This document shows, piece by piece, positions 25,924 through 29,462 of a stretch of DNA of 40,764 bases. The first letter of the stretch is position 1. Every line of letters begins with the position of its first letter. Under the pieces are notes generated by a model. The model did no database searches and was not told the DNA's origin. It saw nothing but the letters and a program-made list of their open reading frames with translations. A program made the position numbers and the translations under genes. The stretch comes from Candidatus Symbiothrix sp. (GTDB lineage Bacteria; Bacteroidota; Bacteroidia; Bacteroidales; Azobacteroidaceae): assembly GCA_031272095.1 (NCBI GenBank), contig JAISUM010000052.1, positions 1 to 40,764 of the forward strand, written 5' to 3'.

Positions 25924-27987
25924 ATGATTAATCACCAACTGATTCATCCGAAAAGCATAGTCGTCATCGGCGGCTCCAACAATACCTCCAAACCCGGCGG
26001 CAGTTGCATACGCAACCTGATAGACTGCGGATTTGATGGCGCACTTTATGTCGTCAATCCGAAAGAAACGGAAGTGCAAGGCTTGAAAAGTTATCGCGAC
26101 GTATCGGAAATCCCGCCTGCCGATTTGGCAATCATCGCTATCCCCGCCAAAGCTTGCTTCGATGCTATAAAGGTCTTGGCGCAGGAAAAACACGTCAAAG
26201 CCTTTGTGATGTTTTCTGCCGGATTCAAGGAAGAAAGTCAGGAAGGCGCCGAAATGGAAAAGGCAATTGCCGACTTGCTGACCGACACTGACGCCGCTTT
26301 GATAGGACCCAATTGCATCGGCATACTCAACCGCTATCATCACAGCGTTTTCACCCGCCCGACGCCTAAAATGAGTCCTTCCGGCGTGGATATGATTTCG
26401 AGTTCGGGTAGCACAGCCCTGTATATCATCGAGGCAAGTATGCGTATGGGTTTGCGTTTCAATTCGATGTGGTCGATCGGAAATGCCGCGCAAATCACGG
26501 TGGAAGATGTGTTGGAATATATGGACATCCGGTTCGATCCGGCTGTTGATTCGAAAATCAAGCTGCTTTATATAGAGAGCATTAACAACCCCGATAAACT
26601 TTTGGAACATACCTCGTCGCTGATTCGCAAAGGCTGTCGCATTGCGGCAATCAAATCGGGATCATCGGCGTCGGGCAGGCGTGCCGCTGCGTCGCATACC
26701 GGCGCGATGGCGAGCTCCGATTCGGCGGTGGAGGCATTGTTTCGTAAGGCAGGCATCGTGCGTTGCTACAGTCGCGAAGAATTGGCTACCGTCGGTGCTA
26801 TTTTTACACTTAAAGAGTTGAAAGGCAAAAATATAGCTATCGTTACACAGGCAGGAGGAGCCGCTGTGATGCTGACCGACGCTTTGGCAAAAGGCGGCAT
26901 GGAAATTCCCTCTTTGGCAGATCATCCGATGGCGGCAGAACTGAAAGCACAACTCCTGCCCGGCTCGTCGGTCAATAATCCGATAGATATGTTGGGAACC
27001 GGCACGGCGCAACATTTGTCGTTGGCGATTGACTATTGCGAACAAAAATTTGAGATGATCGACGGCATTGCGGTGATTTACGGCAGTCCGGGACTGAACA
27101 AGGTCTATGAAGCTTATGAAGTCATCGACCGCAAAATGAAAACCTGCAAAAAACCCATATATCCGGTATTGCCCTCTGTCAGTTCGGCATGGGACGAAAC
27201 CGATTTTTTTATCGAGAAAGGACACGTCAATTTCAGCGATGAGGTAGGATTAGCTAATGCATTGATATTGAGCTATAAAACGCATAATCCCTTGCCCTAT
27301 TTGCCCGAATTGAAAGGCGTGGATGTGCCGCTCATCCGCCGCATTATCGACGATATTTCGGAATCGGGCTACCTGAAACCAAAAGACGTACAGGCATTGT
27401 TTCGTGCGGCTAACATACCGATGGTTAAAGAGTTAGTGTCCGATGATTGGGAGCAGGTCAGGGCGTTTGCCGAACAGACAGGTTTTCCGGTCGTCGCCAA
27501 AGTGGTGGGTCCGGTACACAAATCCGATATCGGCGGCGTTGTGTTGAATATCCGTTCCGAGAAACATTTGCAAATCGAATTTGAACGATTGCTGCAACTT
27601 CCTGATGCACAGTCGGTGATGATTCAGCCGATGTTGAAAGGCGCCGAATTGTTTGCGGGCGCCAAATACGAAGAAAAATTCGGACACATCGTCTTGTGCG
27701 GGCTGGGCGGTATATTTGTGGAAATTTTCAAAGACATTGCCTCCGGCTTGGCGCCGGTCGCCACCGAAGAAGCTTTGTCGATGATCCGTTCTTTGAGAGG
27801 TTATAAAGTGTTTCAGGGTGCTCGCGGACAAAAAGGCATCGACGAATATCAATTCGCCGAAATCATCGTCAGACTGTCTTCGTTGTTGCGTTTTGCCGTA
27901 GAAATAAAAGAGTTAGATATCAATCCCTTGTTGGCTACCGACAAGGGAATTATCGCAGTGGATGCGCGTATAAGAATAGAAAAATGA
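25924..27987 (+). CDS. ADP-forming acetate/acyl-CoA synthetase, fused alpha-beta subunits
   Basis: 687 aa; CoA-binding N-terminus (IHPKSIVVIGGSNNTSKPGG), GPNCIGILN, ATP-grasp C-terminal half (GFPVVAKVVGPVHKSDIGGV, DINPLLA). Confidence 0.92.
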   Translation: MINHQLIHPKSIVVIGGSNNTSKPGGSCIRNLIDCGFDGALYVVNPKETEVQGLKSYRDVSEIPPADLAIIAIPAKACFDAIKVLAQEKHVKAFVMFSAGFKEESQEGAEMEKAIADLLTDTDAALIGPNCIGILNRYHHSVFTRPTPKMSPSGVDMISSSGSTALYIIEASMRMGLRFNSMWSIGNAAQITVEDVLEYMDIRFDPAVDSKIKLLYIESINNPDKLLEHTSSLIRKGCRIAAIKSGSSASGRRAAASHTGAMASSDSAVEALFRKAGIVRCYSREELATVGAIFTLKELKGKNIAIVTQAGGAAVMLTDALAKGGMEIPSLADHPMAAELKAQLLPGSSVNNPIDMLGTGTAQHLSLAIDYCEQKFEMIDGIAVIYGSPGLNKVYEAYEVIDRKMKTCKKPIYPVLPSVSSAWDETDFFIEKGHVNFSDEVGLANALILSYKTHNPLPYLPELKGVDVPLIRRIIDDISESGYLKPKDVQALFRAANIPMVKELVSDDWEQVRAFAEQTGFPVVAKVVGPVHKSDIGGVVLNIRSEKHLQIEFERLLQLPDAQSVMIQPMLKGAELFAGAKYEEKFGHIVLCGLGGIFVEIFKDIASGLAPVATEEALSMIRSLRGYKVFQGARGQKGIDEYQFAEIIVRLSSLLRFAVEIKELDINPLLATDKGIIAVDARIRIEK

Positions 27988-27991
27988 AAAT

Positions 27992-28083
27992 AAAAAAACC
28001 GCTCTTATCGCTGCGTATTAAAAGTAAATGAGATTGTTAATGAAATATACTTATAAACGATAAGAACGGTGTACCTGAAATGA
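27992..28083 (-). ncRNA. Candidate minus-strand small RNA with closing helix and terminal U-run
   Basis: Minus-strand TATCTTTG at 28096-28089, then a transcript with a 13-bp closing helix (ACCGUUCUUAUCG / CGAUAAGAGCGGU, one U.G) followed by an oligo-U tract; no plausible CDS. Confidence 0.4.
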
Positions 28084-28202
28084 CAGTGCAAAGATAATAA
28101 GTTTTATTGTAAAAAAGATTACAAAACCGATATTTTTGCAATATTTATAGATACACCGTTTGTTTTTAGTAATTTTTATTGATTGATAGGGTATAAAACA
28201 TG

Positions 28203-28210
28203 TAACTTTG
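28203..28210 (+). promoter_or_regulatory. -7 box (TAACTTTG) for the DUF2264 gene
   Basis: Exact TAnnTTTG; TTG at 28179-28181 gives a 21-nt spacer; ATG at 28236. Confidence 0.6.
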
Positions 28211-28235: not shown

Positions 28236-29462
28236 ATGAAATACATCATTTTATCTCTCTGTTTGTGGATGTGCGCGGAATCTTGGGCTGCACAACCGAC
28301 GAAAAACACAGTATCCGATCGCCAATATTGGGCAGATCTGGCTACGAAAATGGCTACGCCTGTCTTGGAAAATATGAGCAAAGGCGAATTAAAAAAGAAT
28401 TTTGCAGTGGAATACAGTCCGACTTGGGACAACCGCAGCAAAGATGTCGCTTATTTGGAAGCTTTCGGACGCTTGATGGCGGGAATTGCGCCTTGGTTGG
28501 CTTTGCCCGACGACGACACGCCGGAAAGCAAACAGCGCGCACAGTTGCGCGAATGGGCGTTGAAAAGTTATGTGCACGCCGTCGATCCCGACAGTCCCGA
28601 TTACCTGAAATGGCAGGGCGAAGGACAGGCTTTGGTGGACGCCGCTTACCTTGCTAACAGTTTTCTGCGGGCGCCGAAAGCCTTGTGGGAGCCTTTGGAT
28701 GCAACAACCAAAGCGCGTTACATCAAAGAATTTTCTTCCTTGCGCACTGTCCGTCCGCCTTACAGCAACTGGCTCTTATTTCGGGCGATGGTCGAAACAT
28801 TTTTAGTGTCCGTCGGCGCCGAATCCGATGGTTTTGCTTTGTCGGTGTCGATCCGCAAATTCAACGAATGGTATTTGGGCGACGGTTGGTATTCCGATGG
28901 CGACGAGTATTCTATGGACTACTACAACAGCTATGTGATTCATCCGATGCTGGTTGAAATTACAGAGATTTTGGAGCAGCATAAAATTCGCAGTACGATT
29001 TCGTTTGATTTGGCTTTGCGGCGGATGCAACGCTACAATGTTTTGTTGGAACGGCTGATTTCCCCCGAAGCGACCTATCCTGCGATGGGGAGGTCGATGA
29101 CATACCGCATGGGCGCTTTTCAGACTTTGGCTTTGTCGGCTTGGCGCTACGGTTTGCCGTCGGTTTTGAGCAATGGGCAAGTGCGCAATGCGCTGACAGC
29201 AGTGATGAAACGTATGTTTGCCCATTCCGACAATTTCACCGACAAAAATTTTCTGCAATTAGGTTTTGTCGGACATCAGCCCGATTTGGCGGATTATTAT
29301 ACCAATGCAGGCAGTCTGTATATGACTTCGTTGGTATTTTTGCCCTTGGGATTGCCCGCCGACCACGAGTTTTGGACTGCGCCTGCCGAAGCTTGGACGT
29401 CGCAAAAAGCTTGGTTAGGCTTGCCTTTCAGAAAAGATTATCACGAATCGGTCAGGAGGTAA
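28236..29462 (+). CDS. DUF2264 domain-containing secreted protein
   Basis: 408 aa; signal peptide; FGRLMAGIAPWLALP, GWYSDGDEYSMDYYNSYVIHPMLVEI, GRSMTYRMGAFQTLAL. Confidence 0.88.
   Translation: MKYIILSLCLWMCAESWAAQPTKNTVSDRQYWADLATKMATPVLENMSKGELKKNFAVEYSPTWDNRSKDVAYLEAFGRLMAGIAPWLALPDDDTPESKQRAQLREWALKSYVHAVDPDSPDYLKWQGEGQALVDAAYLANSFLRAPKALWEPLDATTKARYIKEFSSLRTVRPPYSNWLLFRAMVETFLVSVGAESDGFALSVSIRKFNEWYLGDGWYSDGDEYSMDYYNSYVIHPMLVEITEILEQHKIRSTISFDLALRRMQRYNVLLERLISPEATYPAMGRSMTYRMGAFQTLALSAWRYGLPSVLSNGQVRNALTAVMKRMFAHSDNFTDKNFLQLGFVGHQPDLADYYTNAGSLYMTSLVFLPLGLPADHEFWTAPAEAWTSQKAWLGLPFRKDYHESVRR

Follow-up and report, generated by a model that had tools for sequence, protein, structure and literature searches.

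The intergenic region between an acyl-CoA synthetase gene and a DUF2264 gene of Candidatus Symbiothrix sp. probably carries a stand-alone small RNA (sRNA) gene of a known kind on the minus strand, and the probability that the short RNA exists is roughly 70–75%. This reading comes from the sequence itself, since a promoter box, a leader, a hairpin and a U-tract follow each other in the correct order and at the correct spacing, and no ORF is present; the same features support, as a candidate, the minus-strand RNA of about 90 nt that the initial annotation had proposed. The window, i.e., the whole stretch of 40,764 nt that was analysed, corresponds to contig C133 in a genome of 2.3 Mb that is 87% complete. 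Housekeeping genes, e.g., those of ATP synthase subunits and ExbB/ExbD, are located elsewhere in the window. The features are as follows.

25924..27987, plus strand: acyl-CoA synthetase gene, ADP-forming type by its domain content (CoA_binding, Succ_CoA_lig, ATP-grasp_5), with the stop codon at 27985-27987
27991..27997, minus strand: U-tract, an intrinsic-terminator-like 3' end adjoining the acyl-CoA synthetase stop codon
27998..28070, minus strand: predicted hairpin with a 13-14 bp closing stem, an inner 5-bp AAGUA/UACUU stem and a 21-nt apical loop (from the fold and shuffles)
28071..28085, minus strand: predicted single-stranded 5' leader UGUCAUUUCAGGUAC (from the fold; opening its first 14 nt costs 0.3 kcal/mol)
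28089..28096, minus strand: -7 box TATCTTTG, then CA; predicted sRNA promoter (from the TAnnTTTGCA excess and near-identical promoters in relatives)
28131..28138, plus strand: divergent box TATTTTTG with TTG at N21; possible distal DUF2264 promoter (from sequence)
28203..28210, plus strand: box TAACTTTG; possible proximal DUF2264 promoter (from sequence)
28236..29462, plus strand: DUF2264 gene (Pfam PF10022, E 5e-117), divergent to the candidate sRNA and its proposed target
28602..28615, plus strand: predicted pairing site UACCUGAAAUGGCA in the DUF2264 mRNA, codons about 123-127 (14 bp with the leader, one G.U)

Promoter and hairpin of the candidate RNA

The exact box TATCTTTG claimed on the minus strand was present at 28096-28089, correctly placed as a sigma-ABfr -7 box (TAnnTTTG) of a Bacteroidetes intergenic sRNA, and together with the CA it reads TATCTTTGCA (28096-28087, minus strand). 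Genome-wide, TAnnTTTGCA occurred at 503 sites versus 77 for the reversed control, a 6.5-fold excess, so that any given site is, by a rough estimate, very likely to be a promoter. The -33 element had been described as weak, and the closest upstream TTG was indeed found at a 25-nt spacer. Since only 29 of 85 TAnnTTTGCA sites had a TTG at an 18-21 nt spacer, and since work cited in PMC7366714 detected no -33 motif in Flavobacterium johnsoniae, the lack of a TTG at -33 is usual here and no objection to the promoter. BLAST also showed near-identical promoter stretches (TTATTATCTTTGCAC...) in congeneric genomes, ahead of a tRNA gene and of protein genes, one of which is acyl carrier protein-like. 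From the position of the box, the transcription start site is expected at ~28083-28085.

Both arms of the 13-bp helix described initially were present (ACCGUUCUUAUCG at 28070-28058 and CGAUAAGAGCGGU at 28010-27998, with 47 nt between them), and the closing stem, which starts 18 nt past TATCTTTG, extends to 14 bp (28070-28057 with 28011-27998). The AAGUA/UACUU pairing suggested for the interior was part of the predicted single-hairpin fold. The free energy of the minus-strand fold was -21.9 kcal/mol (z -5.9, none of 200 shuffles equally good), while that of the plus-strand fold was -16.8 kcal/mol (z -2.9), weaker because one pair becomes C/A. The two z values thus bear out the claim that the helix is complete on the minus transcript only, where this pair is U.G. 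Directly after the stem, the minus strand contains T7, which corresponds to the oligo-U tract already noticed; no U-tract follows the stem on the plus strand. The 14-bp stem and the U-tract together have the form of a Rho-independent terminator, which would end the RNA just past the acyl-CoA synthetase gene, except that the loop is longer than in a typical intrinsic terminator, which counts against the sRNA reading.

The combination of these elements was rare. A scan for hairpins whose stem has at least 10 pairs and is directly followed by at least 5 T covered 366 kb, consisting of 325 kb of other contigs of the genome and the window; 28 were found in the former and 3 in the latter, and of all T-tract hairpins in the 366 kb, only the candidate had a TAnnTTTG box no more than 60 nt upstream. 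When the intergenic region was shuffled 4000 times with its dinucleotides preserved, a stem of at least 10 pairs with T5 arose twice, and with a TAnnTTTG box in addition only once.

Identity and distribution of the candidate RNA

No match to Rfam was found, in line with the view that the candidate is not SRP RNA, tmRNA or RNase P RNA: nothing bacterial was obtained at the candidate at the gathering and permissive thresholds, and the tRNA/tmRNA search there was also negative. A 6S-type RNA was rejected, as neither the 6S RNA nor the Bacteroidales-1 covariance model matched at the candidate, and the genome's own copy (Bacteroidales-1, RF01693) is located on another contig (G000:C17:15806-15975). 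The 92 nt contained no ATG and short frames only. No second copy of comparable strength was found by BLAST in its own genome, which implied that the candidate is not a repeat.

Homologues were searched with a covariance model built from the single sequence, which reaches fairly close homologues only and may miss a diverged one. It gave no credible homologue in 40 congeneric genomes, where none of the weak matches combined box, stem and T-tract, and none in 393 genomes of the same order, where two weak matches were rejected, one (L239) as a different hairpin (ACGCTGATGACGCAG...) and the other (L240) as a stretch within a helicase-like gene. The surroundings of the acyl-CoA synthetase gene in 43 named loci, scanned with the same model, contained no homologue either. 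When the region was compared with 61 genomes by BLAST, the matches inspected were promoter and low-complexity pieces only, and the exact-stem pattern was not found in the genome contig collection, which may omit the genome itself. A search of plasmids was negative. As far as the collections searched go, the candidate RNA is probably species-specific, and this lack of homologues, which yields no sign of selection, counts against the sRNA reading. Such absence of conservation is commonplace, since strain-specific RNAs make up 27 of the 49 high-confidence intergenic sRNAs in B. thetaiotaomicron (PMC7366714).

The rejected hairpin L239 (L239:1501-1607), whose genome belongs to a different family of the order, lies with a T-tract between two genes and looks like a dispersed-repeat type. 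The adjacency of the acyl-CoA synthetase and DUF2264 genes was not kept in the relatives inspected by synteny comparison from either neighbour. The named relatives of the acyl-CoA synthetase came from 'Candidatus Symbiothrix', 'Candidatus Azobacteroides', Dysgonamonadaceae and Tannerella MAGs, which we take to be a termite-gut Bacteroidales lineage.

Leader match to DUF2264 and alternative readings

The leader UGUCAUUUCAGGUA (28085-28072) was predicted to be unpaired. Its best non-self contiguous pairing in the 366 kb, on both strands, was with the DUF2264 sense strand at 28602-28616, with -26.6 kcal/mol versus -20.6 kcal/mol for the next site (approximate values from hand-entered stack energies). 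Counted from a start at 28085, the pairing comprised 14 bp with one G.U and -20.9 kcal/mol (ViennaRNA), and opening of the DUF2264 site required 3-5 kcal/mol. On DNA, TACCTGAAATGRCAG formed a direct repeat found only at 28072-28086 and 28602-28616 in the 2.3 Mb, and the genome contained no site with one mismatch to it. As targets, the nearby gene start regions were no better than shuffled sequences, and the best matches of the hairpin loop as a seed were not outliers. The pairing site is inside the DUF2264 coding region, away from the start codon. The codons making the match encode L-K-W-Q, while most relatives have L-L-W-R/K, so the pairing site is likewise specific to this species.

Matches of at least 14 bp within 3 kb on either strand were obtained with 45 of 6000 random 16-mers and with the leaders of 5 of 414 box-like sites, among which the candidate leader ranked 9th by energy. 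On its own, the pairing thus has a chance of about 1-2%, before a location in the neighbour's sense strand is required, and this requirement was posed post hoc. Since this local background is not negligible, the DUF2264 target is only suggestive, and from the sequence we consider DUF2264 a possible but doubtful target of the candidate sRNA.

There is about an even chance that the match is instead a matter of DNA or of coincidence, i.e., a shared operator, a small copying event or chance, each compatible with a real sRNA. This is a real rival because the leader and the DUF2264 site are direct repeats on the plus strand; moreover, their similarity weakly continues into the promoter box (~19/22 by eye), which an RNA could not use, and the K and Q codons of the match stand against mostly L and R or K in relatives. 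Against it, the sole difference in the pairing stretch is G.U-compatible, the leader is nearly free of structure, and no further copies were present in the genome.

If the candidate is an sRNA gene, the housekeeping sigma factor of Bacteroidetes (sigma-ABfr type) would recognise TATCTTTG, and minus-strand transcription would start at ~28084. The RNA would consist of a free leader of ~14 nt and a long stem whose AU-rich loop is partly open, and would terminate at the U-tract near 27991 after ~90 nt in total, before reaching the strand antisense to the acyl-CoA synthetase gene. The free leader may then act as a seed by 14-bp antisense pairing with the DUF2264 coding region and lower the translation or stability of DUF2264. 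The RRM_1 protein encoded in the genome would perhaps assist, by analogy with RbpB, an RRM-1 protein that binds sRNAs in Bacteroides (PMC11697453).

The region upstream of DUF2264 also contained a 12-bp inverted repeat (AACGGTGTACCT/AGATACACCGTT, 28065-28076 and 28149-28160), which corresponds to AGRTACACCGTT read outward on each strand (11/12) and was found at exactly these two places in the 2.3 Mb. It is symmetric about the divergent TAnnTTTGCA boxes at 28096-28089 (minus) and 28131-28138 (plus), and only 15 of 2000 shuffles aligned as well as the two divergent promoter units. The repeat may represent a shared operator, an inverted duplication or an invertible segment. The two tandem boxes before DUF2264 suggest two promoters for this gene. 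A further reading, which we regard as unlikely, is a young, species-specific sRNA next to its target, with the promoters of both genes bracketed by the unique inverted repeat and with the sRNA and the DUF2264 site, whose codons differ from those of relatives, having arisen together.

With respect to the RNA itself, the hairpin and the U-tract may represent a cis element only, which terminates stray minus-strand transcription from a weak or fortuitous promoter and shields the acyl-CoA synthetase gene from antisense RNA, in which case the short RNA would be functionless. The position of the terminator directly at the 3' end of this gene, and a species-specific candidate without conservation, would fit such an element. 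However, a 14-bp stem with an interior of 43-47 nt is odd as a terminator, as the T-tract stems elsewhere in the genome with few G.U pairs have loops mostly shorter than 25 nt, and the leader/DUF2264 match would be left to chance; we hold this explanation to be quite improbable. A stem in the 3'-UTR that protects or ends the acyl-CoA synthetase mRNA on the plus strand is very unlikely: it would begin ~11 nt past the stop codon and folds on this strand too, but it has the much weaker fold (z -2.9 versus -5.9), one internal pair lost to C/A and no U-tract. An invertible promoter in which the repeat, unique in the genome, symmetric about both boxes and flanking them, could flip is barely credible, since several percent of like-sized intergenic regions should contain a repeat of this kind (rough estimate) and no recombinase was found among the neighbours scanned.

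Comparison with known small RNAs

To our knowledge, no sRNAs have been studied in the Bacteroidales lineage related to termite-gut symbionts. If transcribed, the candidate would add to this lineage a well-delimited sRNA with a named and testable target, and would serve as an example of the origin of new sRNAs and of their acquisition of nearby targets, even though elements of its type are ordinary.

Of the intergenic sRNAs of B. thetaiotaomicron, 49 that have both a transcription start site and a terminator have been called high-confidence, and a sigma-ABfr promoter was found in 76% of the intergenic sRNA candidates; Northern blot confirmed 9 of the 11 candidates tested, 8 of these 9 having both start site and terminator (PMC7366714). 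Like the high-confidence sRNAs (e.g., GibS, 145 nt; PMC7366714), the candidate is intergenic and AT-rich with a recognised promoter, and its predicted architecture is likewise that of a single-stranded 5' part ahead of a structured part and a Rho-independent terminator. Many of those sRNAs are strain-specific, comparable with the probable species specificity of the candidate. In contrast to them, the candidate is only ~90 nt long with one long hairpin closing nearly the whole RNA, has no known sequence match, and its proposed site is in a coding region rather than at a translation start.

The candidate shares with the FopS family (PMC11697453) the predicted sigma-ABfr promoter, the proposed 5' seed and the occurrence in Bacteroidales, and the RRM-1 partner there has a counterpart in the RRM_1 protein encoded here; FopS, however, is multicopy and conserved, whereas the candidate is single-copy and was found only in this genome. 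Although about half as long as Bacteroidales-1 (RF01693) and without an Rfam match, the candidate resembles that RNA in that a long closing stem encloses an interior with less pairing.
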